A stretch of 64,000 nt of DNA from positions 3,387,001 through 3,451,000 of the forward strand of contig NZ_CP097800.1 in NCBI RefSeq assembly GCF_000612545.2, in the 5' to 3' direction. Position numbers and translations under genes: made by a program. Positions within the stretch are counted from its first letter, which is position 1, and each line of letters begins with the position of its first letter. Below the pieces are notes generated by a model. That model made no database searches. It saw only the letters and a list, made by a program, of their open reading frames with translations, and was not told the DNA's origin. This stretch comes from Streptomyces sp. PCS3-D2 (lineage in GTDB: Bacteria; Actinomycetota; Actinomycetes; Streptomycetales; Streptomycetaceae). Positions 39,422-64,000 of the stretch are shown here, piece after piece.

Positions 39422-40048
39422 TCACCGGCGTCCGTCCTTCATGAGCCCGGGATAGATGCGCAGACGCATGTTGACCGCTCCGGCATCGGACCCGTCAGCG
39501 GTGCCCAGGGCGGGAGTGACCGTCAGGCTGGCCAGGACACCCGCCGAAGCGGCGAGCTCCCAGTAGGCGATGCGGTAGGGCCGCTTCTCCCGACGTCGCA
39601 CCTCCGGGTTGGGAACGGCGTACTTGCCGAGTTCGTCAGGGAAGGAGTCCGAGTCCCAGGCACCGTCCCAGGCGGGTTCGCCCAGCACTGACGATGCAGC
39701 GTCCCGGTAGAGCGGCCAGACCCGCTCCGCCTCATCGAGCAGTTGGGGGTTGCCCTCCGGCGTTGTCGCCGCCCCTCCCCAAACCCAGTGGGAGACCTCC
39801 TGCACCGGCGCCCAGCTGCCACCCAATGCTTCCAGCACCCAATCACCGCCGGTATCGGTGCGCACGTTCAGGACGTACTCGAACTGGGTCGGCGTCCACC
39901 CGAACTGCGCACACCACATGTCCAGGCCTTTGCCCGGCAGCGGAGGCCCGTTCCAGACGGTCTCCCAGTCCACGCCCGCCAGCCCGCGCAGCTCCGTGGC
40001 CAGCTCCTGCGGCGTCCGGCCCACCGGGCGTTCGAAGGGGGTACCCAT
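39422..40048 (-). CDS. Family-1 paralogue A (T4SS-associated, ~208 aa)
   Basis: A 208-residue protein with no signal peptide. The N-terminal half (RTPQELATELRGLAGVDWET, VWNGPPLPGKGLDMWCAQFG, WTPTQFEYVLNVRTDTGG) is nearly identical to copies B, C and D; the C-terminal half differs. Recurring features are W-x(2)-VWxGPP, W-C-x(4)-W, a PAWDGAWDSDSFPDE-type loop and YRIAYWEL. The family is unknown to me. This is the last gene of the array downstream of the secretion operon and has no family-2 partner after it. Confidence 0.8.
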   Translation of the reverse strand: MGTPFERPVGRTPQELATELRGLAGVDWETVWNGPPLPGKGLDMWCAQFGWTPTQFEYVLNVRTDTGGDWVLEALGGSWAPVQEVSHWVWGGAATTPEGNPQLLDEAERVWPLYRDAASSVLGEPAWDGAWDSDSFPDELGKYAVPNPEVRRREKRPYRIAYWELAASAGVLASLTVTPALGTADGSDAGAVNMRLRIYPGLMKDGRR

Positions 40049-40110
40049 GTTCCTGTCTCTCTCACGTGTGCACGCAACACCAACCGCTCCGGCCGCGGAC
40101 CGGACCGTGT

Positions 40111-40377
40111 TCAGCCGGCCCCGGAAGGCCGAGGTGATCGTTCCATCTTCCGTTCCACGTCCCGCTCCGGCCCCTCGGCCGGGGTGAGCTTCGCCGCATC
40201 CTCCGCGAGGCTGTCGATATACGTTTTCGGAGTCATCTTCGCCGCCTTGGCCGACGCTTTGATACGGCGCGCTACGGCCTTCGGATCGAGCGCTTCCTCC
40301 TTGGCACGCTTGTCACGGGCATGCGCCCGACCCAACGCGCCCTCCACGATGTCTGCCGGTATCGGCTCAGTGCTCAC
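40111..40377 (-). pseudogene. Family-2 paralogue B2, truncated
   Basis: 88 codons from GTG 40377, which overlaps the stop of copy B (GTGA). The first ~70 residues (TEPIPADIVEGALGRAHARD ... YIDSLAEDAAKLTPAEG) match the start of C2 (PIPELITEGALALANDR ... YIDLLAEDAAKLTPAEG). It then runs into the conserved intergenic repeat (RDVERKMERSPRPSGAG) and stops. The main body of a family-2 protein has been lost by recombination, probably through the shared GGCCGGGGTGA sequence. Confidence 0.78.
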
Positions 40378-41000
40378 CGGCGACCGGCCGTCATCGGGCG
40401 GGGATAGACCTGAAGGCTCATGTTGACCACTCCGCGATCGGAGCCGCCGGCAGTGCCAAGTGCCGGTGTGATCCTCAGGCTCACCAGGGCGCCGGTCGGG
40501 GCGTCCAGTTCCCAGTAGGCCATGTGGTAAGGATCCTTTTCCTCGATCCGGTCCGTCGCCTTGGGAATCGCGTACTCGCCGAGCTCGTGAGGGAAGAAGT
40601 CGGAATCCCAGGCGCCTTCCCATGCGGGTCGGCCCAGCACCGATGACACCGCGTCCCGATAGCGCGGCCAGACACGATCGGCTTCGGCCAGAACCCAGGG
40701 ACTCCCCTCCGGCGTCTTCGACGACTCTCCCCATACCCAGTGGGAGACACTGTGCACGGGCCTCCAGCTGCCACCTCGCGCATTCAGGACCAGCTCACCG
40801 CCGGTATCGGTGCGCACGTTCAGGACGTACTCGAACTGGGTCGGCGTCCACCCGAACTGCGCACACCACATGTCCAGGCCCTTGCCCGGCAGCGGAGGCC
40901 CGTTCCAGACGGTCTCCCAGTCCACGCCCGCCAGCCCGCGCAGCTCCGTGGCCAGCTCCTGCGGCGTCCGGTCCACCGGCGGTTCGAAAGGGGTACCCAC
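40374..41000 (-). CDS. Family-1 paralogue B
   Basis: 208 residues from GTG 41000, which gives the same length as copy A; an ATG at 41042 would add 14 residues. The N-terminal half is nearly identical to A, C and D, and the C-terminal half carries its own variants (RPVHSVSHWVWGESSKTPEG, KATDRIEEKDPYHMAYWELD). It is translationally coupled to the truncated B2 by a GTGA overlap. Confidence 0.8.
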   Translation of the reverse strand: MGTPFEPPVDRTPQELATELRGLAGVDWETVWNGPPLPGKGLDMWCAQFGWTPTQFEYVLNVRTDTGGELVLNARGGSWRPVHSVSHWVWGESSKTPEGSPWVLAEADRVWPRYRDAVSSVLGRPAWEGAWDSDFFPHELGEYAIPKATDRIEEKDPYHMAYWELDAPTGALVSLRITPALGTAGGSDRGVVNMSLQVYPRPMTAGRR

Positions 41001-41265
41001 GTCGCTTGCTCTCTCTCGCGTCTCGTACGTCACAGCAGCCATCCGGGTCCACCGACCGGATCGTGTTCAGCCGGCCCCGGAAGGCCGGGGTGATCGTTCC
41101 ATCTTCCGTTCCACGCCCCGCTCCGGCCTCACCGGCATCAGGCGCGCAAGGGCCGGGGACAGCACGGAGGCGCAGCTTGAGCGACGGGGAGTCGCGGCAA
41201 GGGGCAAGGGGTCATGCCGGACCGTCCATACCTGCGGCCTGGGGACGGGTGTCAAGGGTCGGACC
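40790..41265. repeat. Constant block of the cassette array, copy at B
   Basis: Contains, in minus-strand order, the 3' tail of C2, a ~210-bp intergenic region and the 5' half of copy B. Nearly identical DNA occurs at 42684-43165 (D2 tail to copy C). Shorter matching parts occur at 39847-40170 (intergenic plus copy A) and 43587-43858 (copy D 5' half and leader). Two near-identical 62-codon frames inside it (41067-41255, 42958-43146) are by-products of the repeat. Confidence 0.82.
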
Positions 41266-42267
41266 GGCCTTGGGTCCGGCTGCGGAAGCCGGTACGGGGG
41301 TCACGGCCCGGGTAGTCTTGGTCGGTTGTTTGAAGCCGAGCTGCCAGAGCGGGGTGGGCAGGGCCTTCGGAGAGGCCTGCCGCTCGGGCGCCTCGACGGC
41401 CTCGGCCGGCCCCTGACCGGGAGCGACCTCCTCGATGATCCCGTCGATCTTCGCCTGCCGCTCCTCCGGGGTGAGCTTCGCGAAACCCTCCGGGTCGATG
41501 TACCGGGGCAGCGTCGGATTGTCGAACTGCGCAACGGCCCGCACCTCATTGGTCCCGGCCTCGTTCCGCGTCACCTCGGGCCAGCTCTGATTGGCCTCGT
41601 AGGCGAAGTGGATGTTGTGCAGACCGACCTCGGCGTTCCTGCACAGCTCGCCGGACTCCTGGGTGTGCAGGATGGACCGGGTGTTGGCGTCCTGCCCGAA
41701 CACGATGACCCGCCCTTCGGCGAGCCCCGCGTAGGTCTTGGAGATCTTGCCCCAGACCTCCTTCGCGTAGCCGGGGTGGAATCCACTCTCCGCGCCACCG
41801 AGGGCCTCAATGACTTCAGGTTCCCAGAGGAACATGTCGTCCAGCTCTGCGCCTCCCCGCGTCGTCTCCAGCGTCTGGGCGGAACCCGGGTTGGCCTTGT
41901 TCTGCTGGGCCGCCCACTCCTCCGCGATGAACCGCTGGGACAGGAAGGGGACGTCCCAATCGTTCAGCGGCGCCTCCGGATGCTCCAGACCAAACGACCA
42001 GAAGGCACTGATCGGCTTCGTCCCCTCGGCCGGGGTGAGCTTCGCCGCATCCTCCGCCAGAAGATCAATGTATTGCTTCTCCTTGGATGCCCGAAGTTTG
42101 CCATCGGGGTCCAACTCGTCCTTCAGTCCCGCCGCCTCAGCAGCGGCACTGATGCGTGCCACTACCGATTCCGGGTCCGCACTGGCTTCCTCGGATTTCG
42201 CCTGGCGGTCGTTCGCCAGGGCCAGGGCGCCTTCGGTTATCAGCTCCGGTATCGGTGCCGAGCTCAT
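41212..42267 (-). CDS. Family-2 paralogue C2 (~350 aa, putative secreted partner)
   Basis: 351 residues starting 2 nt after the copy C stop. The N-terminal ~110 residues are helical and charged (PIPELITEGALALANDRQAK). The centre has the family core W-x2-IS-x2-YAGLAEGRVIVFGQDANT, then SILHTQESGELCRNAEVG. The C-terminus is a Pro/Ala-rich, probably disordered tail ending TRPQAAGMDGPA. No signal peptide or membrane helix is seen. The family is not recognised; being coupled to family 1 inside a secretion operon suggests a substrate or effector, which is inference. Confidence 0.75.
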   Translation of the reverse strand: MSSAPIPELITEGALALANDRQAKSEEASADPESVVARISAAAEAAGLKDELDPDGKLRASKEKQYIDLLAEDAAKLTPAEGTKPISAFWSFGLEHPEAPLNDWDVPFLSQRFIAEEWAAQQNKANPGSAQTLETTRGGAELDDMFLWEPEVIEALGGAESGFHPGYAKEVWGKISKTYAGLAEGRVIVFGQDANTRSILHTQESGELCRNAEVGLHNIHFAYEANQSWPEVTRNEAGTNEVRAVAQFDNPTLPRYIDPEGFAKLTPEERQAKIDGIIEEVAPGQGPAEAVEAPERQASPKALPTPLWQLGFKQPTKTTRAVTPVPASAAGPKAGPTLDTRPQAAGMDGPA

Positions 42268-42269
42268 CG

Positions 42270-42893: not shown

Positions 42894-43165
42894 GTTCCTG
42901 TCTCTCTCTCACGTGTGCACGCAACACCAACCGCTCCGGCCGTGGACCGGATCGTGTTCAGCCGGCCCCGGAAGGCCGGGGTGATCGTTCCATCTTCCGT
43001 TCCACGCCCCGCTCCGGCCTCACCGGCATCAGGCGCGCAAGGGCCGGGGACAACACGGAGACGCAGGTTGAGCGACGGGGAGTCGCGGCAAGGGGCAAGG
43101 GGTCATGCCGGACCGTCCATACCTGCGGCCTGGGGACGGGTGTCAAGGGTCGGACCGGCCGCCGG
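42684..43165. repeat. Constant block of the cassette array, copy at C
   Basis: Contains the family-2 tail remnant after copy D, the intergenic region and the 5' half of copy C. It is nearly identical to 40790-41265. The intergenic part includes the small hairpin CCCCGGAAGGCCGGGG. Confidence 0.82.
43103..43165 (-). pseudogene. Family-2 tail remnant (D2)
   Basis: The frame ending at 43103 reads GPTLDTRPQAAGMDGPA, identical to the C-terminus of C2, but it directly follows copy D and has no body. A family-2 gene once followed copy D and was deleted, leaving only its 3' end, which is part of the constant block. Confidence 0.7.
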
Positions 43166-43796
43166 CTCGGGGGTCACGGCCGGGGACCGGACGCGGATAC
43201 ACGTCGAGGTCCATGTTGACGACTCCGATGCTCGACCCGTCGGCCGTGCCCAGGCCAGGCGTGATGCGCAGACTGACCAGCGTCTCCGCCGACCCGGCAA
43301 GCGCCCAGTAGGCCATGTGGTACGGGTCCTTGTCCTCGATCCGGTCCCGCTGCTGGGGAATCGCGTATTCACCAAGCTCCTGCGGGAAGGAGTCGGAGTC
43401 CCAGGCCCCCTCCCAGGCTGGCTCGCTCAGCACCGAGGAAACGGCATCGCGGTAGAGGGGCCACGCCCGGTCGGCCTCGGCCAGCACTTCCGCGTTGTGT
43501 TCCGGGCCGTTGACCGACACGGCACCCCAGACCCCGTGGGAAACGCTCCTCACCGGCGCCCAGCTCCCGCCCGTTGCATTCAGCACCAGCTCACCGCCGG
43601 TATCGGTCCGCACGTTCAGGACGTACTCGAACTGGGTCGGCGTCCACCCGAACTGCGCACACCACATGTCCAGGCCCTTGCCCGGCAGCGGAGGGCCGTT
43701 CCAGACGGTCTCCCAGTCCACGCCCGCCAGCCCGCGCAGCTCCGTGGCCAGCTCCTGCGGCGTCCGGTCCACCGGCGGTTCGAAGGGGGTACCCAC
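43143..43796 (-). CDS. Family-1 paralogue D
   Basis: 217 residues from GTG 43796; the start matches copies A-C. The 5' half and the leader (shared with B) are nearly identical to the others, and the 3' half is distinct (RSVSHGVWGAVSVNGPEHNA, QQRDRIEDKDPYHMAYWALA). The C-terminus (GRDPRAGGRSDP) extends past the family norm into the remnant of a deleted family-2 partner. It lies 29 bp after copy E. Confidence 0.8.
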   Translation of the reverse strand: MGTPFEPPVDRTPQELATELRGLAGVDWETVWNGPPLPGKGLDMWCAQFGWTPTQFEYVLNVRTDTGGELVLNATGGSWAPVRSVSHGVWGAVSVNGPEHNAEVLAEADRAWPLYRDAVSSVLSEPAWEGAWDSDSFPQELGEYAIPQQRDRIEDKDPYHMAYWALAGSAETLVSLRITPGLGTADGSSIGVVNMDLDVYPRPVPGRDPRAGGRSDP

Positions 43797-43825
43797 GTCG
43801 CTTGCTCTCTCTCGCGTCTCGTACG

Positions 43826-44449
43826 TCACAGCAGCCATCCGGGTCCACCGACCGGATCGGGGTCGGCAGGACCGTGGAAGGCGAGAGTGATCGTCCCACC
43901 CCCCGGCCCCCGGCCCGTCCGGCAGTACAGGTCGAGGACGATCACCGGCGCGAGCGGGTTCGCCCAGCGCCACTGCGCGAGCCGGTACGGAGCCTTGCGC
44001 TCCAGCCGGTCCGCCGCGTCGCCCCAGCGGCCCGGAGCGGGCGGCTCCGGGAAGTCGGGACTGTCCCAGGCGCCCGCCCAGCCGGGCGCGCCCAACGCGG
44101 CGGTCAGCTGCGCGAGGTACGCCCCGTACCGGTCGAGGGCGACCTCCATGACGCCCGCGTCGTCGGCTCGCGCGTCCGCCCGGACCCGCCAGGCCGTGTA
44201 CGACGCGCGGGTCACAGGCCGGCCGGAGCCACTGGAGGAGGCCAGGTGCAGGCGGCCGCCGCCCGGCGTGCGCACCCACAGGCCCGCCTGGGGCCACAGC
44301 GGCGTCCAGCCGAAACCCGCGCACCACTCGGCGAGCGGGGCCTCGTCCTCCGGCAGGCCCGCCCATACGGCGCGCCAGTCCACGCGCAGCAGCCCTGCCA
44401 GCTCGGCGGCGAGCTGCTGCGGCGGGTGGTCGGTGATGACACTGGCCAT
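43826..44449 (-). CDS. Family-1 paralogue E (divergent)
   Basis: 207 residues (MASVITDHPPQQLAAELAGL, LRVDWRAVWAGLPEDEAPLA, EWCAGFGWTP). It keeps the family framework (DWRAVWAG, EWC-x3-GW, GAWDSPDFPEP, YRLAQWRW) but differs from A-D throughout, including the 5' half. It begins 13 bp after the VirB6-like gene stop, linking the family-1 array directly to the secretion operon. Confidence 0.8.
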   Translation of the reverse strand: MASVITDHPPQQLAAELAGLLRVDWRAVWAGLPEDEAPLAEWCAGFGWTPLWPQAGLWVRTPGGGRLHLASSSGSGRPVTRASYTAWRVRADARADDAGVMEVALDRYGAYLAQLTAALGAPGWAGAWDSPDFPEPPAPGRWGDAADRLERKAPYRLAQWRWANPLAPVIVLDLYCRTGRGPGGGTITLAFHGPADPDPVGGPGWLL

Positions 44450-44462
44450 GGTTCAGGGCTTC

Positions 44463-46769
44463 CTAGTGGGATACCCGGCCGCCGCTGCCGTCTCGCGGCG
44501 GCGGGGGCTGGTACGGCTGGGGCTGTTGCTGCGGCTGGGCGGGCGGAGTGGGTGCCTGCGGCGGGCGCGGCGCCGGCGGCCGGGCCACTGGACCGTCGAC
44601 GATGCTGACCCGGCCGGCCGGTCGGGCCGCCTGCTGCGGCGCCGGGGCCTGCTGGGGCGCGGGGGCGGGAGCCGAAGCGGGAGCCGGCTGGGGCGCGGGA
44701 GGCGGCCCCTGCTGCGGCGCGGGCGCTTGGGAGGCGCTGACCCGGCCGCTGCGGCGTCGCGGCTGCGGCTCGGCGGCGGTCTGCTCCTCCGTCTCCCGCT
44801 CCTGCCTCTGCTTCATCTGGTCGTAGTTCTCCTTCTGGAGCGCGGCAGCCATCTGTGTGCTCTTGCGCTGGTTCCGCTTGGTGCTGCTCGGAGCGATCCA
44901 GCCGCCCTTCTGGAGCTTCCCGCCGAGCACGGCCTTGTCCATGCCCCGGCCGACGTTCCCGGCGGCCCGACCAGTCACCCGGCCCGCCACCCGGCCCGCA
45001 CCCGCGGCAGCATTGCCTGCGAGGCGCTGGCTCTGAGCGCCTAGCTTGCTGGTCAGCGAGTTCGCCATGTCGCCCGCACCGAGTGCGTCCTCCGCGCCTG
45101 CGATCTTCGGGCTGTAGCTGCCCGAGAGCAGCTTCTTCAGCATCATCACGACGGCGATCGTGACGAGCAGGAGAATCAGCAGCTGCATGCCGAGGGAGAT
45201 CCGGGCAGGCAGGATCATCTGGTAGAGCACCAGCAGGACCGTGAGGATCACACCGAAGCCCGCGCGCAGCACGAAGCTGTGGATGAAGGTCTCCAGCCAG
45301 CCCTTGAGCAGCTTCTGCTGGGACGGATGGATGCCCAGGGTGGCGATCAGCGGAAGCATGATGATCATGATGAGGGTCACGGCGTGCCACAGCAGCGTGA
45401 GCGCACTGAGCACGATCACCATGACGCCGACGATCAGTGCGGCGAAAACCGAATAGAAGGAGATCGCGAGCCGGTCACCAGCGTTGTGACCGGCCCACTC
45501 CTCGAAGGAGACCGGGTAGATGAATTTGTCCCCGTCATCGCTGTCGTGGTTGGCGTCCTTGCCGCCCGCCATCTCGTAACGAATGGGAACCCAGCTGTCG
45601 TTGTACTTGTCGATGGGCTCTTTGGGGTCGATCTCCTTGTTGGTGCGGGCCTGAGCCACCAACTGGCGCACCCGGAGGTCCGCGCAGCGAGCGCTCCCAT
45701 CAGCGCCCCAGTCGCACTTGGTCGAGCCCTTCGGAACGCAGTCGGCCCGGACACCGCCCTCCTCGTTCTTGAAGATGCAGTTGGTGCCGGGCTCGCCGAA
45801 CTGTCCCAGAGCCCAGGGACGGAAGAGCAGCGTGTCGTACATGGCGCAGCTGTTGACCCGCACACCCCGGTTGCGTGCACCTTCGGGCAGGTCACAGGGC
45901 GGCGGCATCGTCTCCGCCATGCCGCCCAGAACTGCCTCGCTGAGCAGAGAGTTGGCCTGGGCAATGCCAGAATCCGCCTCGTTGATGAACTTGTTGTAGT
46001 TCCCGCCGGTGAGCATGACCACGACGGCGATGGTGGTCAACGATGCCCAGCCGACGCCCGCCCAGGCCTCTCGCATCTCGTTCTTGCGCCATTTGCCGAA
46101 CACCCAGATGCCCGTAAGCGTGATCATGAGGGGCACGGCAGGTATGAAGAGCTTCGTCTTGAGCGTCTCCACCGCATTGTCGCGCCCCGTATACAGGCCG
46201 GAGAGCGGGCTGGGATTGGAGGCGTACTCCTTGATGGAAATGGCGGTGCGGGTCAGCATTTTAGTGAGGTCGAAGACCGTATCCGCGATGCCGTTGTTGA
46301 TGTAGTTCATGATGGAGCAGTCGTCGGCGTCGCTGCCGTTGAACCAACCATCGTTTTCCTGCGAGGCGTCCCCCACGCCGCGCATGGTCATGGACCAGTT
46401 CAGCCCGCGCACGCCGGCGAGCTCGTACATCGTGTAGTTCTGAGCATCCAGCGGCATATCGGCGGGGTTGCCGTAGAAGCCCGTCGTGTCGTTGAGGTTC
46501 TTGCCGCGCTTGTCTTCCCACTGCTTGACAGCCGGCATGATCGACTCGATGTTGCCGGGGTTGTCCATCTGGTAGTTGTCGTCGCCCGTGAAAGAGCAGG
46601 CGAAGCTCACGGCGTTCGCCGAGTTGGGCACGGCCATCGTCAGGGCAATCAACGCGAACATCAGGAACGCGCCGACGCGCACCACACGCCCGACCGCCTT
46701 CACCCGTTGACGGGGGGAGGGCCGGCCGGAGAGATCTCCACGTGACTTGGCGCTACGGCGTACGAGCAT
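44463..46769 (-). CDS. VirB6/TrbL-like polytopic protein of the T4SS-like system
   Basis: A 768-residue protein. A signal/anchor segment lies at about 31-53 (GAFLMFALIALTMAVPNSAN), then a Cys-containing external region and helices at about 205-260. A second external region has paired Cys (PPCDLPEG, SCAMYD, NCIFKN, DCVPKG, KCDWG, RCADL). A dense block of helices (about 445-590) includes HAVTLIMIIMLPLIATLGIH. The last ~170 residues are a cytosolic Ala/Gly then Pro/Gln-rich tail with three (S)GRVS motifs. Topology fits the channel scaffold (VirB6/TrbL class) of a conjugation-like machine. Confidence 0.78.
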   Translation of the reverse strand: MLVRRSAKSRGDLSGRPSPRQRVKAVGRVVRVGAFLMFALIALTMAVPNSANAVSFACSFTGDDNYQMDNPGNIESIMPAVKQWEDKRGKNLNDTTGFYGNPADMPLDAQNYTMYELAGVRGLNWSMTMRGVGDASQENDGWFNGSDADDCSIMNYINNGIADTVFDLTKMLTRTAISIKEYASNPSPLSGLYTGRDNAVETLKTKLFIPAVPLMITLTGIWVFGKWRKNEMREAWAGVGWASLTTIAVVVMLTGGNYNKFINEADSGIAQANSLLSEAVLGGMAETMPPPCDLPEGARNRGVRVNSCAMYDTLLFRPWALGQFGEPGTNCIFKNEEGGVRADCVPKGSTKCDWGADGSARCADLRVRQLVAQARTNKEIDPKEPIDKYNDSWVPIRYEMAGGKDANHDSDDGDKFIYPVSFEEWAGHNAGDRLAISFYSVFAALIVGVMVIVLSALTLLWHAVTLIMIIMLPLIATLGIHPSQQKLLKGWLETFIHSFVLRAGFGVILTVLLVLYQMILPARISLGMQLLILLLVTIAVVMMLKKLLSGSYSPKIAGAEDALGAGDMANSLTSKLGAQSQRLAGNAAAGAGRVAGRVTGRAAGNVGRGMDKAVLGGKLQKGGWIAPSSTKRNQRKSTQMAAALQKENYDQMKQRQERETEEQTAAEPQPRRRSGRVSASQAPAPQQGPPPAPQPAPASAPAPAPQQAPAPQQAARPAGRVSIVDGPVARPPAPRPPQAPTPPAQPQQQPQPYQPPPPRDGSGGRVSH

Positions 46770-46821: not shown

Positions 46822-47376
46822 CTACCTGGGGATGTAGTCCGTCCTGATGCAACCCTTGGCGCTGGCCTCGCGCTTGGAGTACCCGCTCGGGATCTTGCTG
46901 TTCAATCGCTCGTCGCACGACACGATGAGCATTCCGGCGGACGTCAGCGCGGTTACGGTTTCGCCATCCTCAGGAACGACCGCGAAGTCTGCCCCGACCA
47001 GCGCGCGCCCCTGCTCCCCGGCCTCCTTCTTCGCCTTGAGTCCCTGCTCGAACTTCTTCATGTCGGAGATGACCAACAGGACCATCGGATCGCCTTGATC
47101 GGACTCACAGAACGCCCGCTCCTTCACTCCGCCCTCGGCTCCATTGGGCAGCTTCTTCGTGGCGCTCTTGGCGAACCCGCCGGCCGTCGCTTCCGTCTCC
47201 AGGTCCTTGCACACGGTGTGCTGGTTGATGAAACGCACCATCGAAGCCACGTCCTTCGCCTTCGGCAGGCTCTTACCTCCGAAGCCCGTCTGCTGCGCCT
47301 CGCCGTCCCCGCAGCCCGTCAGGGCGGTGAGGGCGACCAGTGCCGCTGCTGCGGCGAGGGTCCTGGTCTGACGCAT
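46822..47376 (-). CDS. Lipoprotein of the T4SS-like cluster
   Basis: A 184-residue predicted lipoprotein: signal peptide 1-21 with lipobox LTALTGC (Cys 22), then a small external domain with further Cys (TVCKDL, AFCESD, IVSCDER, KGCIRTD) that could form two disulfides. ATG 47376 is chosen because the signal peptide starts there. It lies between the VirB4 and VirB6-like genes and is probably an envelope component of the machine. No specific family is recognised. Confidence 0.75.
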   Translation of the reverse strand: MRQTRTLAAAAALVALTALTGCGDGEAQQTGFGGKSLPKAKDVASMVRFINQHTVCKDLETEATAGGFAKSATKKLPNGAEGGVKERAFCESDQGDPMVLLVISDMKKFEQGLKAKKEAGEQGRALVGADFAVVPEDGETVTALTSAGMLIVSCDERLNSKIPSGYSKREASAKGCIRTDYIPR

Positions 47377-55525: not shown

Positions 55526-55909
55526 CTACGCCTCCGGCTCGTACTCCTCCAGCGGGAGCGGGTCGAACGGATAGGCCGTATGCCCGCCGACCTTGGGCGA
55601 ACACGCCGCGAACGGACCCAGGTCCGTGTCCATGAGCACGCGCAGGTGCGGGTCGGCATGGTGCAGCCACCAGGTCGACATGCCGAGGGCGGTGTCGTGC
55701 CGGAGGTGCTCCCAGGCGAGCCAGAGCCCGGAGAGCCGGGCACCCGCCTCGGGGTGCTCCCACCAGCGGGGACACCAGGTGGCGGAGGATCCGTTCAGCC
55801 GCCGGCGGACCATCGGGGCGAGGTACTCGGAAACGAAGGCGAAGACGTCGGGGAAGTGGAGGGGAACTTCCCCGCCACTGTCCGGCCGTTCTGCAGGCGT
55901 CGTGCTCAT
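55526..55909 (-). CDS. DUF4913-family protein
   Basis: A 127-residue protein with the DUF4913 pattern: LHFPDVFAFVSEYLAPMVRR, WCPRWWEHPEAGARLSGLWL, AWEHLRHDTALGMSTWWLHH, then a C-terminal Cys in FAACSPKVGGHTAYPFDPLP. Such proteins accompany T4SS/TraG-type clusters in Streptomyces. It is the last gene of the minus-strand unit G-G2-DUF4913, 28 bp after G2. Role unknown. Confidence 0.82.
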   Translation of the reverse strand: MSTTPAERPDSGGEVPLHFPDVFAFVSEYLAPMVRRRLNGSSATWCPRWWEHPEAGARLSGLWLAWEHLRHDTALGMSTWWLHHADPHLRVLMDTDLGPFAACSPKVGGHTAYPFDPLPLEEYEPEA

Positions 55910-55937: not shown

Positions 55938-57029
55938 TCAGTGTTCCATCCCGGCGGACTCGGGGGCGGCCTCGATCACGGGGTTGATCACACCGTGCGT
56001 GCTCGCGCTCACCGATCGGGGGGGGCCGGCACCTTGATGGCGCGGGGGATGCTCACGCCGGGGAGGAAGCCGTTGGCCGGGGTGGCCACACTGGCTTCGG
56101 GCCTCTGGGCTCCGTTCGGCTCCGCCACCGTCCGCCCGGCCTCCGGTTCCCCGACCGCCGTGTCGGACTCCTCGCGGGCCGTCCCTTCCTCTGCCGGCTC
56201 CGCGTAACTGGTCGCCGACGAAAGCCGGGCGACGGCCGCGGCACGCGCCTCCCGCTGGTGCTCCGGCACCTCGATCGCAGCGAGCCTGGCCGCGAAGAGC
56301 AAGGGGGGTCGTACCCTTCACGGCGTAGTCCTCCATGCGGAGGTCACAGCGGACGGCCGGGTCCGCCATCAGGTCGTACATCTCTGCCGGAAGGGGCGCC
56401 TGACGCGGGAACTCGATGGGGAATCCCACCGCGTCCTTCCCCACGCCCTCGGGCCCGACGACCTTCGGCATCTCCGTCTCCCCCAGGATGGACCCGGCGC
56501 CGATCTCGGCCGCGAAGACGGCGACCTGTCCCTCGGCCGCTTTGGCGTACTGCCCCGAGGCGGCCTCCCAGATCCCGGCCGGAGCGTCCTGGACGGCCTG
56601 CTCCGTCAAGTTGAACCGTCTGACCAAGGCCTGCTGTACGTTCCGGTCCCACAGCTCGTACGACTCGAGCTTGCGACCCACCGGCGAGTCCTCCAGCACC
56701 TGGTAGCCCCGGCTCTCACCGCACGCCTGGACGAGGAAGCGGTGCCCCACCTCGCGCAGCGCTCCCTCCGGCTGGGAACGCCAGGACCAGAGCGCACGCA
56801 CCTCTCCCCGGTCCGCTGCGGTGGGCGACTCCGTCAGTGCGACGTGGGTGCTGTAGGCGAGCACGTCGGGGAACATGTCCTTGCCGCCCGCCGCCTGCCC
56901 GTCCCGGTACAGGCGGTCGACGGCCTGCGCGACCTTGTCCGGGGCGAGGGGGCGGTGCTCGTAGTACGCCTCCTCCAGCTCCATGGCGCGGTCGATCTCT
57001 GCTTGTGTCGGGCGAAGGAACTCCGTCAG
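55938..57029 (-). pseudogene. Family-2 paralogue G2 with two compensating frameshifts and CTG start
   Basis: It starts with CTG (57027-57029) overlapping the copy G stop as CTGA; the family usually uses GTG or ATG. It reads FLRPTQAEIDRAMELEEAYY, ACGESRGYQVLEDSPVG, WEAASGQYAKAAEGQVAVFA, SILGETEMPKV and LRMEDYAVKGTTPL. At the C6 run (56303-56308) homology moves to another frame (LFAARLAAIEVPEHQREARA ... GFLPGVSIPRAIKVPAPP). At the C8 run (56018-56025) it returns to the first frame, ending PVIEAAPESAGMEH. One base too many and one too few in the two runs explain this. Confidence 0.75.
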
Positions 57030-57425
57030 CGAGCCCTCGCAGTGAACTCGGCCGGCGGAAAGACCTCGAGCGAGACGGCCGTGCCACCCGGCGTGTCCGC
57101 GGTCCACGTGGGGAAGCTGACCGTCTGGGACAGCACGAAGTACGGCTCTCCCGGCACCGCGCCCGCCGGCGCCCAGTAGGCGAAGCGATAGGGCTCGCGG
57201 TTCAGCATCCGCTCGTCACGGCCGTTCCAGTACCAGTGGCGCGGCGGTTCCGGGAAGTCCGAGGCGTCCCAGGATCCCGTCCAGGTGGGCAAGCCCAGCA
57301 CGCCCTGCGCCACCTGGAGGAAGGTGGGCCAGCTCGCTTCGACGGCCGAGAACACCTCACCGTTCTCCGCAGCGGTCTGGGCCTTCAACTGGTACGCGTA
57401 GTGCTCCAGCGCAGTCAGCCCCGTT
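57026..57425 (-). pseudogene. Family-1 paralogue G, 3' part (split by IS110 element)
   Basis: The C-terminal part of a family-1 protein: ITGLTALEHYAYQLKAQTAA, FSAVEASWPTFLQVAQGVLG, TGSWDASDFPEPP, YRFAYWAPAG. It joins in frame to the 5' part at 58976-59202 if the intervening element is removed: ...WTFFDRAG + ITGLTALEHYAYQ..., the same length as copy F across the junction. Confidence 0.85.
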
Positions 57426-57428
57426 ATG

Positions 57429-57684: not shown

Positions 57685-58902
57685 ATGTTCGAGATCGAAG
57701 ACGTGGGCGTGTTCCTGGGCCTGGACGTCGGCAAGAGCAGCCATCACGGTCATGGGCTCACCCCGGGCGGGAAGAAGGTCTTCGACAAGCAGCTGCCCAA
57801 CAGCGAGCCCAAGCTGCGGGCCGTCTTCGACAAGCTGACCGCGAAGTTCGGCACCGTGCTGGTGATCGTGGACCAGCCCGCCTCCATCGGCGCCCTGCCA
57901 CTGACCGTCGCCCGCGACGCGGGCTGCCAGGTCGCCTACCTGCCCGGACTGGCGATGCGCCGGATCGCCGACCTCTACCCGGGCGAGGCCAAGACCGACG
58001 CCAAGGACGCCGCCGTCATCGCGGACGCCGCCCGGACGATGCCGCACACCCTGCGCTCGCTGGAGCTGACCGACCAGATCACCGCCGAGCTGACCGTGCT
58101 CGTCGGCTTCGACCAGGACCTGGCCGCCGAGGCCACCCGCACCTCCAACCGGATACGGGGCCTGCTCACCCAGTTCCACCCCAGCCTGGAACGCGTCCTG
58201 GGCCCGCGCCTGGACCACCAGGCCGTGACCTGGCTGCTGGAGCGCTACGGATCCCCAGCCGCCCTGCGCAAGGCCGGACGCCGCAGACTCGTCGAGCTGA
58301 TCCGCCCGAAGGCCCCGCGCATGGCCACCAGGCTGATCGACGACGTCTTCAACGCGCTCGACGAGCAGACCGTCGTCGTTCCCGGGACCGGCACCCTCGA
58401 CATCGTCATCCCCTCCCTGGCCGCCTCGCTGGCCGCTGTCCACACCCAGCGCCGGGCGATGGAAGCCCAGATCAACGCCCTGCTGGAGGCTCACCCTCTT
58501 TCCCCGGTCCTGACGTCGATGCCCGGCGTCGGCGTCAGGACCGCCGCCGTCCTGCTGGTCACCGTCGGCGACGGCACCAGCTTCCCCACCGCCGCCCACC
58601 TCGCCTCCTACGCCGGCCTCGCCCCCACCACGAAGCAGTCCGGGACCTCGATCCATGGCGAACACGCACCCCGAGGCGGAAACCGGCAGCTCAAACGGGC
58701 GATGTTTCTCTCCGCCTTCGCCTGCATGAACGCCGACCCGGCCTCCCGCGCCTACTACGACAAGCAACGAGCACGCGGCAAAACCCACACCCAGGCCCTC
58801 CTCCGCCTCGCCCGCCAACGCATCAGCGTCCTGTTCGCCATGCTCCGCGACGGCACCTTCTACGAATCCCGGACACCGACGGACGTCGAGCTCGCCGCTT
58901 AG
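57685..58902 (+). CDS. IS110-family DEDD transposase
   Basis: 405 residues, apparently intact. The N-terminal RuvC-like domain has VFLGLDVGKSSHHG (first Asp), VLVIVDQPASIGALP and ADLYPGEAKTDAKDAAVIAD (later acidic residues). The C-terminal Transposase_20 domain has LTSMPGVGVRTAAVLLVTVG, LASYAGLAPTTKQSGTSIHG with the catalytic Ser, and GGNRQLKRAMFLSAFACMNA. ATG 57685 follows AAGGGG. It is transcribed opposite to the gene it interrupts. Confidence 0.93.
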   Translation: MFEIEDVGVFLGLDVGKSSHHGHGLTPGGKKVFDKQLPNSEPKLRAVFDKLTAKFGTVLVIVDQPASIGALPLTVARDAGCQVAYLPGLAMRRIADLYPGEAKTDAKDAAVIADAARTMPHTLRSLELTDQITAELTVLVGFDQDLAAEATRTSNRIRGLLTQFHPSLERVLGPRLDHQAVTWLLERYGSPAALRKAGRRRLVELIRPKAPRMATRLIDDVFNALDEQTVVVPGTGTLDIVIPSLAASLAAVHTQRRAMEAQINALLEAHPLSPVLTSMPGVGVRTAAVLLVTVGDGTSFPTAAHLASYAGLAPTTKQSGTSIHGEHAPRGGNRQLKRAMFLSAFACMNADPASRAYYDKQRARGKTHTQALLRLARQRISVLFAMLRDGTFYESRTPTDVELAA

Positions 58903-58975
58903 CCTCAGCGAGCCCGAACCACCCGAAACCCGACACAGGTGCCTTGACGAAAGACATAGAGGCACCCCCCCCATG

Positions 58976-59202
58976 CCTGCCCGGTCGAAGAACGTCCACC
59001 TGCCCCCGTCCGTTGTCCTCACCCGCAGCTGCCGGTCGAAGGTCAAAGGGTCCCAGCCATTGCGGTCACACCACTCGGCGAATTCCGTGGATCCGCCCTG
59101 CGGCGACCCCGACCACACCGACGGCCAGTGGTCCACGGCTTTCATGTTCGCCAGTTCGGCCGCCATGTCCTGCGGTGTCCGGCCGGTCTCCTCGGTCAGC
59201 AT
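58976..59202 (-). pseudogene. Family-1 paralogue G, 5' part (split by IS110 element)
   Basis: From ATG 59202 (GGGGACGAGG upstream): MLTEETGRTPQDMAAELANM, WPSVWSGSPQGGSTEFAEWC, DRNGWDPLTFDRQLRVRTTD, GGRWTFFDRAG, then the IS110 element. Its promoter would lie in the divergent region shared with the gene at 59477. Confidence 0.85.
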
Positions 59203-59476: not shown

Positions 59477-60166
59477 GTGGAGTCACCTGCCGAGAACAAG
59501 CGAAGCGCGGCACTTGCCCTGGCGGTACTGGGAGTTCTGCTGATCGCCTCCCTGGTCGTCCTCCTCGTCTTCGACGGCGAGGACGACGCGGACCCCACGG
59601 CGGACGGCAAGGCACCTTCGGCCTCCGCGCAGGGCAAGGGCGCCTCCGCGGCCGGCGGCGCGAACGGTGGTGCGGGCCAGCAGGCCGGCGCGAACGGCGC
59701 CGACTCCGTGCCGCCCATCGTCCAGCCGGCGGAACTGGCCGAAGCCCACCGGGCGATGGCCGCCTACATGGCCGGCCTGAGCACGTACACGTACACCGAC
59801 CAGAGCGCCGCCTGGTCCAAGCCCCTGCTCGACCTCACGGTCTCGGACGAGCGGATGAAGGGCCTCACCGCCCTCCCCACGGGCAAGGCCTGGGACACCT
59901 GCCAGGTCGCCCGCTGCTCCTCCACCGGCAAGGCGAGCGTGGTGCGCGACGGCATGATCGCCCAGGACCTGGTCAACGGCGGCGGCAGCCTGGTCTCCAG
60001 CGTGGTCTCGCTGACCTCCGTGCGCTCCGAGAACGGCAAGCAGACCCTCACGGAGACCAACTCCTGGCTGGTCAGCGCCCGCAAGGACGCCGGCGCGTGG
60101 AAGGTGTCGGGCTTCGACCTGCAAGGCCTGGGCAACGTGGGCGCGGACGAGAAGGCAGGGAACTGA
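59477..60166 (+). CDS. Second VirB8/TcpC-like membrane protein
   Basis: A 229-residue protein from GTG 59477. One membrane helix (about 11-31: ALALAVLGVLLIASLVVLLV) precedes an acidic Gly/Ala linker and an external domain with the NTF2-like pattern (ELAEAHRAMAAYMAGLSTYT, DTCQVARCSSTGKASVVRDG, GAWKVSGFDLQGLG). Two Cys (DTCQVARC) may pair. Position and topology suggest a VirB8-like scaffold part. It is followed 6 bp later by the wall hydrolase gene. Confidence 0.72.
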   Translation: MESPAENKRSAALALAVLGVLLIASLVVLLVFDGEDDADPTADGKAPSASAQGKGASAAGGANGGAGQQAGANGADSVPPIVQPAELAEAHRAMAAYMAGLSTYTYTDQSAAWSKPLLDLTVSDERMKGLTALPTGKAWDTCQVARCSSTGKASVVRDGMIAQDLVNGGGSLVSSVVSLTSVRSENGKQTLTETNSWLVSARKDAGAWKVSGFDLQGLGNVGADEKAGN

Positions 60167-60172
60167 TACCCG

Positions 60173-62269
60173 ATGGTGGCTCCTGCCGTACTCGCGGCCG
60201 CGTCGAAGGCCGCCAAGGTCGCCAAGACGGCCAAGACGGCCGCCCAGATGGCCGGCGGCCAGGGCGGGGGCGGCGGCAAGAAGAAGAACAACGGCAAGAT
60301 GCTGCTGCTCGCCGGCCTCGGCGGACTGCTGCCGATCGGCGGCGCCGGGCTCATCGCCCTGGTGCTGATCGGCGCGCTCGTCGGTGGTCTCGGCAGCGGC
60401 GCCGCGCAGGCGGCCTGCGGCAACTACGCCGAGAACGCGGGCCACGGCAACACCGGTGACCAGGCGGCCACCAACCCGATCATGCCCGCCGGCACGATCT
60501 ACCTGCCCAGTGAGACGGCCCGCAACGAGATACCCCCGCGGATGATCCTCGCGGCGATGCGCGCCGCCGCCCGCTACGAGGGGCTGGACTGGACGCTCAT
60601 CGCCGGCCAGATGTACCAGGAGACGAAGTACGGCCAGGACCCGTCCGCGGCCCCCGGGGGCAAGAACAGCGCGGGCTACATGGGCCTGCTGCAGTTCGGC
60701 CCTCCCGCCTGGAAGGACTACGGCGACGACGGCAACGGCGACGGCAAGAAGGACCTCTACAACATCGACGACGCGGCCTACGCCGCCGCGAACTTCCTCC
60801 ACGCCCTGAAGGCCGAGACGCAGCCCTGGAAGGCCCTGCTGCGCTACTCCGGCTCGCTGGAGAGCAACACCGTCTACCCCCGTGTGGTCCTCACCCAGGC
60901 GGCCCGCTACCGCGGCAACCTCACCGGCGAGAAGAGCCTGATCGAGGGGTGGTACGCCCACCTGAAGGCGACCGTCGAGAAGAACCCGAACTTCCCCACC
61001 CTGGGCCAGCAGTCGGACATCCCCGCCCCCGTCGGCAACGACGCGCAGCCGACCGAGGCCCTGAGCATCACGTCGGCCTCGCCCCGCTCCTGGTCCACGC
61101 CGCCCTACCCGGGAGACGCCGCGGCCACCACCCGCGCCGCCGCGGACCCGGGCAGCCGGGTGTCCGCGGACCCGGGCGCCCGGATCGAGACCGTCGCCTT
61201 CTCCCGCCCGATGATCAAGCCGGCCGCGCCGCCGAGCCAGGACGGCAAGAACTGGCAGTGGCCGCTGAAGGAGGGCACGTACACCGTCGGCACCAAGTAC
61301 CACGCCAACGGTTCCAGTTGGAGCCTCGGCTACCACACCGGCCTCGACCTGCGGGCGACCTCCGGCACCCCCATCTACGCCCCCGCCGACGGCAAGGTCA
61401 TCAAGGTGACCAGCGGCGGCTCGTACGGCAACGAGACCCACATCGAGCACGCGGGCGGCGTCGTCACCCTGTACGCGCACCAGACCAAGGCGATGGTGTC
61501 CCAGGGCGCCTCCGTCAAGCGCGGCGACCAGATCGGCACCGTCGGCAGCACGGGCAACTCCAGTGGCCCGCACCTGCACTGGGAGGTCCGCGTCCCCGGT
61601 GTCGACAACCCCTTCGTCCCCGGCCAGGACAACGGCCCCGGCATGATCGACCCGGAGGGCTGGCTGCAGGGCAAGGTCTCGGCCACCCCGGACTACGGCA
61701 CCGTGCCCGGGGGCGGCGGCGACACGGCCAAGGACGCCACGTACGCCTCGTGCGCCAAGGACGGCAAGGGCACCGCGGTGCCCCCGGACGGCGCGGGCGT
61801 CACCGGCGTCCTGCCGGGTGCCGACGACCCGGTCGTCCGGTCCGCGCTCCGCTGGGCCCAGCGGGGCATCGGCCGCCCGTACGTGTGGGGCGCGCCCCGG
61901 CTCCAGGGCAACAACCCGGTCTCCTTCGACTGCTCCAGCTTCACGCAGTGGATGTACTACCAGGCCAGCGGCGGAAAGATCGACATCGGTACGGTCACCT
62001 ACACCCAGGAGAAGAACCTCCGCGCGTCGAAGATCGACCTGAGTCAGGCGCAGCCCGGGGACCTCATCTTCTTCCGGCCCGGCCCGAGCGGTTCCGAGCA
62101 CGTCGCGGTCGTGTGGGACCCGGCCGGCAAGAAGATCCTGCACGCCCCGCGCGTGGGCAAGAACGTCGAGTTCAGCACCTGGGACGTGCAGGGCCAGATC
62201 ACCGGCGTGTACCGGGTGCCGATCCCGGCGGGCACCAACCCCGTCGAAGGCGGCGGCGAACACGCGTAG
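60173..62269 (+). CDS. Three-domain peptidoglycan hydrolase of the T4SS-like system
   Basis: A 698-residue wall-opening protein. A basic N-terminus and membrane helix (about 43-78) precede a transglycosylase-like domain (about 115-265: GQMYQETKYGQDPSAAPGGK, NSAGYMGLLQFGPPAW), an M23 endopeptidase (about 365-480: YHTGLDLRA, SGPHLHWEVR) and an NlpC/P60 domain (about 545-690: FDCSSFTQWMYY with Cys about 585, PGDLIFFRPG, SEHVAVVWD with His about 642). This is a VirB1/PrgK-like role with an extra catalytic domain. All three active sites look intact except that the transglycosylase acid is only inferred (QETKYG). Confidence 0.88.
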   Translation: MVAPAVLAAASKAAKVAKTAKTAAQMAGGQGGGGGKKKNNGKMLLLAGLGGLLPIGGAGLIALVLIGALVGGLGSGAAQAACGNYAENAGHGNTGDQAATNPIMPAGTIYLPSETARNEIPPRMILAAMRAAARYEGLDWTLIAGQMYQETKYGQDPSAAPGGKNSAGYMGLLQFGPPAWKDYGDDGNGDGKKDLYNIDDAAYAAANFLHALKAETQPWKALLRYSGSLESNTVYPRVVLTQAARYRGNLTGEKSLIEGWYAHLKATVEKNPNFPTLGQQSDIPAPVGNDAQPTEALSITSASPRSWSTPPYPGDAAATTRAAADPGSRVSADPGARIETVAFSRPMIKPAAPPSQDGKNWQWPLKEGTYTVGTKYHANGSSWSLGYHTGLDLRATSGTPIYAPADGKVIKVTSGGSYGNETHIEHAGGVVTLYAHQTKAMVSQGASVKRGDQIGTVGSTGNSSGPHLHWEVRVPGVDNPFVPGQDNGPGMIDPEGWLQGKVSATPDYGTVPGGGGDTAKDATYASCAKDGKGTAVPPDGAGVTGVLPGADDPVVRSALRWAQRGIGRPYVWGAPRLQGNNPVSFDCSSFTQWMYYQASGGKIDIGTVTYTQEKNLRASKIDLSQAQPGDLIFFRPGPSGSEHVAVVWDPAGKKILHAPRVGKNVEFSTWDVQGQITGVYRVPIPAGTNPVEGGGEHA

Positions 62270-62373
62270 CGGACCGCGCCGGCGGGAGCCGGCGCACCGC
62301 AGACCCCTCAGCAGCAACGGAACGGATACCTCTTCCGTGCCAGATCCGCTCCAGCGGAAGGACAGTCCTGACC

Positions 62374-64000
62374 ATGGCCTCACCCCAGCAGAAGAAGCCC
62401 CGCGCCGACGAGGACTGGACGATCGAGATCGCCTGCCTCGTCGGAGGCCTCCTGGCGCTTCTGTGCGGTGCCTGGCTCGCCGCGCGCCTCGGTTCGTCCT
62501 TCGGCGACCACCCGGCGCCGCCGGGCAACCCGTTCTCGTTCGCCGTCTCCCTGGTCATGGGTGACTACTCCTGGCCGCACGGAGCGGCGAACGCCATCGC
62601 GGCCGCCGAGGTCCTGCTGCTCGCCGGAGCCGTGACCGCCGCCTATCGGCTGCGCCAGCGCCTGCGCAACAAGCCCGACGTCGACGGCGCCGCCCAGCAC
62701 CTCGCCAAGGGCGAGGAGCTCGGCAAGCTCACCATGAAGGGTGCCGCCGCGACCGCCGAACGCCTCGGTGTGGACAGCGGCTCCCCGGGCGTCTTCATCG
62801 GCCGCTCGCTGCACGGGCGCCAGCCCCTGTTCGGCTCCTTCGAGGACATGCACGTCGACATCTGGGGTCCCCGTACGGGCAAGACGACCCGGCGCGCCAT
62901 CCCCGCGATCCTCGACGCCCCGGGCTCCGTACTCGTCACCTCCAACAAGCGCGACATCGTCGACGCCACCCGGGGCCCGCGCCAGGCCCGCGGCCAGGTC
63001 TGGGTCTTCGACCCCCAGCAGGTGGCGCAGGAGCCGCCCACCTGGTGGTGGAACCCGCTGTCGTACGTGACCGACGTCGCCAAGGCCCGCAAGCTGGCCG
63101 ACCACTTCGCGTCGGGCTCGCGGGACGCCGACGCCTCCACGGACGCGTTCTTCGACCCCGCCGGACAGGACCTCCTCGCCAACCTCCTGCTGGCGGCGGC
63201 GACCGCCAAGGCCTCCATCACCCAGATCTACACCTGGCTGTCCAACCCGAAGGACGACACCCCCGAGCGCATCCTGCGCGGGGCCGGACACCTGATGCCG
63301 GCCGACGCCCTCTCCGGCGTCATCACCGCCCCGGACAAGCAGCGCAGCGGCATCTACGGCGTCGCCCAGCAGATGGCGTCCTGCCTGATCAACCCCGAGG
63401 TCAACAAGTGGGTGACGCCGCTCTCCGCGACGGACGACCGCCCGGAGTTCGACCCGCGCGAGTTCGTCCGCGCCGACTCCACCCTGTACTCGCTCTCCCG
63501 CGAGGGCACTGACTCCGCCGGCCCGCTGGTGACCGCTCTGACCGTGGCGGTCGTCGAGGCCGCCGAGGAGTACGCCACCACGCAGCGCGGCGGCCGGCTG
63601 TCCCGCCCGCTGGTGGGGGTCCTCGACGAGGCCGCGAACGTCTGCCGCTGGCGCGCCCTGCCCGACCTCTACTCGCACTACGGATCGCGCGGCATCATCC
63701 TGATGACGATCCTCCAGTCCTGGGCCCAGGGCATCGAGGTGTGGGGCGAGCGCGGCATGGAGAAGCTCTGGTCGGCCGCGAACGTCCGCGTGTACGGCGG
63801 CGGCGTCTCGGACACCCGCTTCCTCGGCGACCTCTCGGAGCTGGCCGGCGAGTACGAGCTGCGCGAGTTCACCACGTCCCGCGCCTCGGAGACGGGCGGC
63901 TGGTCGGGCCACCGCACCCTGAACGAGTCGGTACGCCGCGACCGCGTCCTGAAGGTCTCCGACCTGGGCGCGATGCCGCCCGGCCGGGCCCTCGTCCTGG
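62374..64000 (+). CDS. VirD4/TraG-type coupling ATPase (3' end outside window)
   Basis: The first 542 residues of a T4SS coupling protein. Two N-terminal helices (about 18-38 and 68-90) lead to the ATPase: Walker A GPRTGKTTRRAIPAIL (about 165), DPAGQDLLANLLLAAAT, Walker B LVGVLDEAANVCRW (about 413) and MTILQSWAQGIEVWG. VirD4 proteins select substrates and hand them to the channel. ATG 62374 is the start. The gene runs past position 64000; the C-terminal substrate-binding part is not visible. Confidence 0.9.
   Translation, partial: MASPQQKKPRADEDWTIEIACLVGGLLALLCGAWLAARLGSSFGDHPAPPGNPFSFAVSLVMGDYSWPHGAANAIAAAEVLLLAGAVTAAYRLRQRLRNKPDVDGAAQHLAKGEELGKLTMKGAAATAERLGVDSGSPGVFIGRSLHGRQPLFGSFEDMHVDIWGPRTGKTTRRAIPAILDAPGSVLVTSNKRDIVDATRGPRQARGQVWVFDPQQVAQEPPTWWWNPLSYVTDVAKARKLADHFASGSRDADASTDAFFDPAGQDLLANLLLAAATAKASITQIYTWLSNPKDDTPERILRGAGHLMPADALSGVITAPDKQRSGIYGVAQQMASCLINPEVNKWVTPLSATDDRPEFDPREFVRADSTLYSLSREGTDSAGPLVTALTVAVVEAAEEYATTQRGGRLSRPLVGVLDEAANVCRWRALPDLYSHYGSRGIILMTILQSWAQGIEVWGERGMEKLWSAANVRVYGGGVSDTRFLGDLSELAGEYELREFTTSRASETGGWSGHRTLNESVRRDRVLKVSDLGAMPPGRALVL

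Follow-up and report, generated by a model that had tools for sequence, protein, structure and literature searches.

A chromosomal secretion module with an embedded gene array

The stretch of DNA analysed here (the window, 64,000 nucleotides, positions 3387001-3451000 of contig C1) comes from the 7.6 Mb genome of Streptomyces sp. PCS3-D2 (G000). It carries a chromosomal Gram-positive-type type IV secretion system (T4SS) module, at 36904-64110 in window numbering, in which an array of paired genes is embedded. In each pair a gene of family 1 (F1) lies directly upstream of a gene of family 2 (F2). This analysis concerns the module, the pairs and the putative role of F2 as a toxin carried by the secretion machine.

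The gene order and strands given by an earlier sequence-only reading of this DNA were recovered in an open reading frame listing and a codon-usage gene call (Table 1). From 53073 downwards the minus strand encodes TcpC, a VirB2-pilin-like protein, the TcpE-position gene, VirB4, a lipoprotein-like protein and a VirB6-like protein, followed by the F1 copies E, D, C (with its F2), B and A; beyond copy A the operon continues into three more conserved genes. The plus strand encodes a small protein, an F1-F2 pair, a conserved protein without known family, a three-domain wall hydrolase and VirD4. The DUF4913 gene, a broken F2 and an F1 gene interrupted by an IS110 element lie on the minus strand, between the plus-strand F1-F2 pair and the gene at 59477-60166. 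The IS110 element (57427-58975 region) was inserted within this F1 gene, which adjoins the frameshifted F2, so that the two are one decaying pair. Only two F2 genes in the window are intact (41212-42267 and 54466-55479). RNA families and tRNA genes were searched for in the window and none was found.

The core of a Gram-positive T4SS is present by Pfam profiles (VirB4, VirD4, VirB8/TcpC and the wall hydrolase), in agreement with the names first given to TcpC, VirB4, VirD4 and the three-domain hydrolase. Other names had to be qualified. The VirB6-like protein does match NCBIfam NF046089, but below the cut-off of that family, and the 89-aa protein first called TcpD-like is better named VirB2-pilin-like. 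The genes called TcpE and second VirB8-like are conserved in relatives but gave no Pfam match at E up to 1, and these two names stay unconfirmed. As for the F2 copies proposed in the array, C2 is intact, whereas 'B2' is only an N-terminal remnant.

Table 1 Features of the module in the window (minus and plus refer to the forward strand of the contig)
Feature	Position	Strand	Evidence or remark
Conserved 79-aa gene, left edge of module	36904..37143	-	Same place in relatives; no Pfam match
WhiB-like regulator with AbiEi-like C-terminus	37158..38582	-	PF02467 E 1e-5; PF13338 E 1e-5
Conserved hydrophobic protein, closes slot 1	38710..39318	-	No Pfam match
Remnant of F2 that follows A, start and tail joined	39318..39425	-	By eye
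F1 copy A, without intact F2	39422..40048	-	
F2 N-terminal remnant ('B2')	40111..40370	-	F2 profile positions 2-77
F1 copy B, without intact F2	40374..41042	-	Start uncertain
F2 copy C2, intact, ARC-type toxin-like	41212..42267	-	
F1 copy C, partner of C2	42270..42893	-	
F2 tail remnant after D	43104..43160	-	Within 216-nt repeat, 99% identical to C2 end; by eye
F1 copy D, without F2	43143..43796	-	
F1 copy E (F1E type), adjoins VirB6	43826..44449	-	
VirB6-like membrane protein	44463..46769	-	NF046089 E 2e-15, below cut-off
Lipoprotein-like protein	46822..47376	-	Named by eye
VirB4 ATPase	47430..50408	-	PF12846 (AAA_10) E 1e-28
TcpE-position gene, name by position only	50416..50964	-	No Pfam match; conserved in relatives
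VirB2-pilin-like, 89 aa	51044..51313	-	PF04956 E 5e-7, over cut-off
TcpC/VirB8-like	51376..53073	-	PF12642 E 1e-24
Conserved small protein with hydrophobic segment, opens slot 2	53362..53799	+	
F1, slot 2 partner	53846..54469	+	
F2, slot 2, intact, ARC-type toxin-like	54466..55479	+	
DUF4913 protein	55526..55909	-	PF16259 E 4e-35
F2 broken by frameshift	55938..57107	-	F2 profile split across two open reading frames
Second part of IS110-split F1 gene	57026..57427	-	F1 profile positions 76-201
IS110-family transposase	57685..58902	+	PF01548 E 7e-50
First part of IS110-split F1 gene	58975..59202	-	F1 profile positions 1-74
Conserved protein, VirB8-like by position only	59477..60166	+	No Pfam match; conserved in relatives
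Cell-wall hydrolase	60173..62269	+	SLT_2 + M23 + NlpC/P60 (Pfam)
VirD4 coupling protein	62374..64110	+	PF12696 (TraG-D_C) E 2e-32; PF02534 E 1e-19

Distribution of the module and its gene pairs

With VirB4 as query, 24 loci with 85-94% identical proteins were collected, 23 from Streptomyces and one from Actinobacteria bacterium OV320. The module genes of these relatives were labelled by BLAST and those of the window by Pfam. Gene order is the same across the 24 loci as far as the contigs extend, and in 20 of them F1-F2 occupies two fixed slots. Slot 1 lies between VirB6 and the hydrophobic gene and usually holds F1E-F1-F2 (two such units in L070 and L076). Slot 2 lies between the small protein and DUF4913 and holds F1-F2. 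In slot 2 of L054, two F1-F2 pairs and DUF4913 run in one direction; against this order, the window seems to have the stretch with DUF4913 and the broken pair in inverted orientation. The four loci lacking F2 are L060, L061 (whose contig stops after VirB6), L071 and L073. The last two keep VirB4 but have lost F1, F2, DUF4913 and VirD4 at its usual place together.

Ten further genomes were compared and show the same picture in several chromosomal neighbourhoods. Since three of them coincide with members of the 24 (G062 with L063, G086 with L065 and G216 with L076), the samples of loci are not independent. Judged by eye, one genome (G362) has the module in the same neighbourhood as the window; close to the module, but not within it, this genome carries one more F1-F2 pair. 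In L148 (G230), a VirD4 about 70% identical adjoins DUF4913, with no F1 or F2 within the 32 kb read; from this locus, DUF4913 may belong with VirD4. The WhiB-like regulator with its AbiEi-like C-terminus is kept in the module.

Close VirD4 proteins (at least 79% identical) were found in 16 of 393 same-genus genomes, whereas any match was found in 379, the next best being 68% identical. A profile of the F2 core gave a best E below 1e-40 in 16 of 386 same-genus genomes and a weak match (E 1.7e-7 to 4.7e-4) in 12. The 12 weak ones were left out of the 16, as they correspond to nine proteins of a family named A6 here, one pretoxin-HINT protein and two F1-F2 fusions. The 16 genomes with close VirD4 are the same as the 16 with strong F2, and each time the nearest F2 and VirD4 lie on one contig within about 19 kb. 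Because the species are related, no probability was attached to this co-occurrence. In a sample of 150 genomes, with the genome of the window included, F1 was present in seven, F2 in six and a close VirB4 in five. The genome G042 has a different T4SS (VirB4 22% identical), yet VirD4 (79-84%), F1, F2 and DUF4913 are found there together as a block. Of 296 phylum-wide genomes two gave a match to the core profile, both of the same genus and one of them the genome of the window. Neither F2 in plasmids or viral contigs, at the limits used, nor F1 in plasmids was found.

The sequence-only reading had named F1 and F2 homologues lying mainly away from T4SS genes as the pattern that would break the link to the machine. 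They were found mainly at T4SS modules, with exceptions in G013, G227 and G269 and in the extra pair of G362. These data bear on an explanation in which F1-F2 is a toxin-antitoxin or abortive-infection pair, depleting NAD on phage attack and standing beside the T4SS by chance. Such a role would suit the overlapping, partner-first gene order, the lack of a signal-peptide-like stretch in F2 and the fusions away from any T4SS. It fits poorly with the two fixed slots kept in 20 of 24 loci, the 16 of 16 agreement with VirD4 and the presence of VirD4, F1 and F2 as one block at another T4SS in G042, and it is regarded as unlikely.

The probable enzyme family of F2 and its proposed export

A profile search of both families, as proposed in the sequence-only reading, gave no credible known family for either, though the F2 profile did rank bacterial ADP-ribosyl cyclase (ARC) toxins first in the PDB. 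Against Pfam and NCBIfam the best F2 match had E 0.003, in one of 29 sequences. The profile of these 29 sequences was then run against 177,635 PDB sequences, in which the ARC toxins 9ro8 (E 3.5e-4) and 9ouf (E 2.8e-3) ranked first; with the core profile they did so again (E 8e-5 and 1.4e-3). Aplysia ADP-ribosyl cyclase and CD38 stand lower in the list (E 0.04 to 1.9). Because unrelated entries intervene between the ARC toxins and CD38 (TatB at E 0.26, and gp41 constructs at E 0.003 with the core profile), these E-values alone are not proof that F2 is an ARC protein.

The residues are more telling. The F2 set comprised 41 distinct proteins from 29 of the 33 loci used, the frameshifted copy of the window included, and the putative catalytic residues W82, E114, W155 and E187 (numbering of the protein at 54466-55479) are kept in 38/38, 40/40, 41/41 and 41/41 of the sequences that cover them. 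In the HMMER output the ARC toxins align at W155 and E187, and CD38 aligns at E114; W82 was placed by eye and from its motif (AFWSY compared with AFFWSG). They correspond to W273, E299, W323 and E356 of the toxin ARCtox, in which changing any one of the four to alanine abolishes activity (PMC12605009). The glutamate equivalent to E114 is needed for hydrolysis of cyclic ADP-ribose (PMC12356396), and NAD(P) depletion is therefore the expected outcome of F2 activity.

Two further sequence families connect F2 to known enzymes. The F2 profile matches the C-terminus of a same-genus pretoxin-HINT protein (L132; PF07591 E 5e-23; Rhs-type repeats by eye), whose last 129 residues match 9ouf at E 6e-19 and 9ro8 at E 1.6e-17. 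The nine A6 sequences, found through F2, match it profile to profile at E 2e-10; in their own ranking, entries of the CD38 family come first (best E 0.0026, the others at least 0.16). Because of the kept tryptophan and glutamate residues, the bridge through L132 and the profile link to A6, F2 very probably belongs to the CD38/ADP-ribosyl-cyclase (Tox-ARC) family of enzymes.

Both linking groups have features of their own. The pretoxin-HINT protein with the ARC C-terminus is encoded at L132:1441-3147 (minus), and a second, similar domain fragment lies downstream at 454-873. The A6 proteins (L126-L131 and L133-L135) carry an N-terminal LQR-x-x-GNAAV-like motif, which we take to be typical of contractile-injection cargo; two of them were scanned and gave no Pfam match. 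They are perhaps an undescribed family of NAD-targeting cargo.

No signal-peptide-like stretch was found in F2 by simple hydropathy, and the protein ends in a Pro/Ala-rich region followed by a short tail, G-[MILV]-[GEDA], present in 36 of 41 F2 and in 11 of 765 other proteins of the same loci. Given the link to VirD4, the lack of a signal-peptide-like stretch and this tail, export by the T4SS is the simplest route for F2, and we consider it probable that this machine exports it.

Relatives of the VirB4 of this machine occur on Rhodococcus plasmids. In the one plasmid examined, typed as non-mobilizable, they lie in a conjugation-type cluster, which suggests a conjugative ancestry of the machine. 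No relaxase was recognised by Pfam among the module genes of the window, nor by similarity labels among those of the 24 loci and ten genomes, and the same holds for integrases. In the genome of the window the relaxase families PF08751 and PF03432, the only two searched for there, gave zero and two matches, the nearer about 76 kb off. The PF00589 integrase matches lie at least 160 kb away, in a search that missed an integrase 69 kb away and did not extend to serine recombinases genome-wide. The sequence past 64000 was also read, and the 35 kb to the right of the window hold housekeeping-type genes, as judged by eye from translations. In the flank check a relaxase and an integrase did turn up about 69-77 kb to the right; they seem to belong to a small element of their own.

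That element (G000:C1:3519874-3528296; L165:1874-10296) encodes an integrase of phage type, the middle of which also gives a match to a LacI helix-turn-helix domain. Its relaxase is one of two of MobA/VirD2 type in the genome, the other being on the 15.6 kb contig C3. An ordinary integrative and conjugative element was rejected as the principal interpretation of the locus, given a module in which neither a relaxase nor an integrase was recognised and which recurs in several chromosomal neighbourhoods. A related explanation is a DNA-conjugation machine with a relaxase acting in trans, F1-F2 then serving addiction or the killing of non-recipients. The Rhodococcus plasmids and the relaxases 69-77 kb away and on C3 are compatible with it; the conserved module without a recognised relaxase and the use of TraB by Streptomyces conjugative plasmids (PMC12857230) argue against it, and we hold it to be improbable.

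Family 1 and the proposed function of the locus

No known family matched F1 credibly. Its best Pfam match had E 0.002, in one of 52 sequences, and its best PDB match E 0.05, to unrelated proteins. The pairing itself is constant. F1 lies upstream of F2 in 41 of 41 cases, 38 of them by called genes within 400 nt and three by six-frame scan. In 30 of the 38 called pairs the two genes overlap by four bases, and two gaps of 290 and 377 nt both occur at shortened F2 calls.

That family 1 is real, as the sequence-only reading had claimed, is seen in the DNA of copies A-D, which are mosaics. The first ~60 codons are 92-100% identical, the next 20 are 82-92% and the rest mostly 52-82%. Synonymous divergence (dS) is 0.09-0.18 over the first 78 codons, compared with 0.75-1.5 over the remainder. 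The ratio of nonsynonymous to synonymous divergence (dN/dS) in the second parts is 0.15-0.31, and A, B and D stay open frames beside decayed F2. In their second parts, B and D have as their nearest or joint nearest relatives F1 genes with an intact F2 in other species, not A or C, whereas A and C are nearest to one another. The orphan copies A, B and D thus look as immunity genes kept against the toxins of relatives would be expected to look.

With VirB4 taken into account, F1 distances track those of F2 (partial rho 0.79 over 35 pairs; 0 of 500 permutations). This comparison used 35 of the 38 pairs. It left out G042, which has no close VirB4, and two F2 that are short; the frameshifted F2 of the window and its partial F1 were taken as they read. 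Among 23 slot-1 pairs the correlation with the ARC domain was 0.85 for F1 and 0.56 for F1E. Where F1E is absent (12 pairs), F2 is tracked better by the second part of F1 (0.58) than by the first (0.27).

F1 could instead be mainly a secretion chaperone or adaptor that brings F2 to VirD4, immunity being provided otherwise or by F1E only. It precedes F2, its first parts are nearly constant in the window, most loci have two F1-type proteins per slot-1 unit, and F1-F1 and F1-F2 fusions exist, all of which a chaperone would accommodate. Less easily explained by it are orphan F1 genes kept (dN/dS as above) without F2, the resemblance of the B and D second parts to F1 of other species with intact F2 (although A and C are closest to each other), and the closer tracking of the ARC domain by F1 than by F1E. 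Of the alternatives this one deserves the most attention and is still unlikely; F1 is probably an immunity protein rather than a chaperone only.

A different role would be that of a developmental complex resembling cmdABCDEF of Streptomyces coelicolor, in which F2 would make cyclic ADP-ribose as a signal within the mycelium. In its favour, cmd deletion mutants sporulate late, three of the cmd genes are similar to plasmid genes for transfer (PMC2782261), and the module here includes a WhiB-like regulator. However, the sparse distribution (16 of 393 genomes), the diversity of F2 and the co-divergence of F1 suit conflict better, and E114, needed for cyclic ADP-ribose hydrolysis, is kept in F2, unlike in the cyclase Nac1 (PMC12356396). 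We regard this role as very improbable.

On balance, the locus is more plausibly a chromosomal T4SS of conjugative ancestry that delivers NAD(P)-depleting F2 proteins, with F1 as cognate immunity. What is observed in the sequences is the ARC homology of F2 with its residues, the pairing, the slots, the co-occurrence with VirD4 and the mosaic F1 genes; export, delivery, toxicity, immunity and the joint swapping of F1 and F2 are what these suggest. In this mechanism F2 would be a CD38-like NAD(P) glycohydrolase/ADP-ribosyl cyclase of the cytosol that VirD4 recruits; the VirB/Tcp channel, together with the wall hydrolase, would pass it into a neighbouring cell, where it would drain NAD(P). F2 would be made just after F1, the two genes usually overlapping by four bases, and F1 would most likely bind and silence it in the producer and its kin. 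New specificities could arise by recombination of F1-F2 cassettes, in which the first part of F1, the spacer and the F2 tail are common and the second part of F1 and the F2 body vary. Old F1 genes would persist as orphan immunity once the partner F2 decays. The sequence-only reading had proposed protein export with F2 as substrates and F1 as immunity proteins or chaperones; this proposal is supported by the ARC domain, the pairing, the VirD4 co-occurrence and the module without recognised relaxase or integrase.

Several observations weigh against the delivery of F2 with F1 as immunity. The direct matches of F2 to ARC proteins are modest and share their list with the unrelated entries given above. 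The pattern of the tail was chosen from the very sequences in which it was counted. L060 keeps VirD4 with no F1 or F2 in the locus. The relaxases of the small element and of contig C3 could use the machine in trans. Linkage alone can make adjacent F1 and F2 co-diverge, producing part of the correlation, and in slot 1 the first and the second part of F1 do not differ in how well they follow the ARC domain (0.83 for either). An F1-F1 fusion in G013 (L053:9654-11000, minus; 448 aa) has no T4SS within the 20 kb read. The same is true of the F1-F2 fusions in G227 and G269 (L124 688-1842 and L125 682-1836), which lack the last catalytic glutamate and have the same neighbours in both genomes.

The bacteria-killing T4SS of Xanthomonas, Stenotrophomonas and Lysobacter are Gram-negative machines whose substrates have a long C-terminal signal domain. 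They inject proteins, and their effectors are recognised by a consensus at the C-terminus and by an adjacent gene for immunity (PMC8262851); here the machine is of Gram-positive TcpC type, the toxins are of one family and their tail is some six residues long. ARCtox of Pantoea and Tac1 of Streptococcus share with F2 the CD38-type W, E, W and E residues, a neighbouring partner gene and, by profile and bridge, the domain family. They differ in being C-terminal domains on carriers (LXG, PAAR), whereas F2 is stand-alone, with its own N-terminal region and Pro/Ala-rich tail, is linked to a T4SS and has in F1 a partner without credible family match. One Streptomyces mirabilis ARC protein pictured in the ARCtox paper may relate to F2 (PMC12605009). 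The delivery routes named for ARC toxins include the type V, VI and VII secretion systems and CdiA among others, not T4SS, in the available text (PMC3482391, PMC12605009, PMC12356396).

Among Gram-positive bacteria, the 89K T4SS of Streptococcus suis has been proposed to secrete a protein (PMC12857230); this is a protease, the system sits on a pathogenicity island, and the available text mentions no toxin-immunity array. The cmdABCDEF genes are also a chromosomal T4SS-like cluster of Streptomyces, but number six and have a developmental role, and were likened here by description only (PMC2782261). An exported alarmone synthetase encoded near T4SS genes in S. albireticuli is an earlier suggestion of a Streptomyces T4SS exporting a toxic enzyme (PMC12691689). 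The enzyme is another one, and the machine may be a different one too. In the open-licence literature searched, no report of F1/F2 or of an ARC-T4SS pairing was noticed, and the available text of PMC3218068, PMC11297309 and PMC10711302 does not mention the pairing. The machine type and the toxin type are each known; to judge from this literature, they have not been described together before in a Gram-positive bacterium and with a cassette array that recombines.

According to a 2025 review, it is surprising that almost every known function of Gram-positive T4SS is DNA transfer, and dedicated effector T4SS in these bacteria are a long-standing question with one proposed case (PMC12857230). The locus could be the first dedicated toxin-injecting Gram-positive T4SS, one that dropped its relaxase, injects CD38-like enzymes chosen by VirD4, swaps F1 second parts and F2 jointly and keeps orphan F1 genes as a heritable record of past toxins, a possibility we hold with slightly less than even confidence. 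It offers a compact system, with a toxin chemistry that can be named and natural gain and loss across species. If the proposed role is true, T4SS would join the delivery routes of ARC toxins, and the locus may be a weapon that injects toxin into neighbouring cells.

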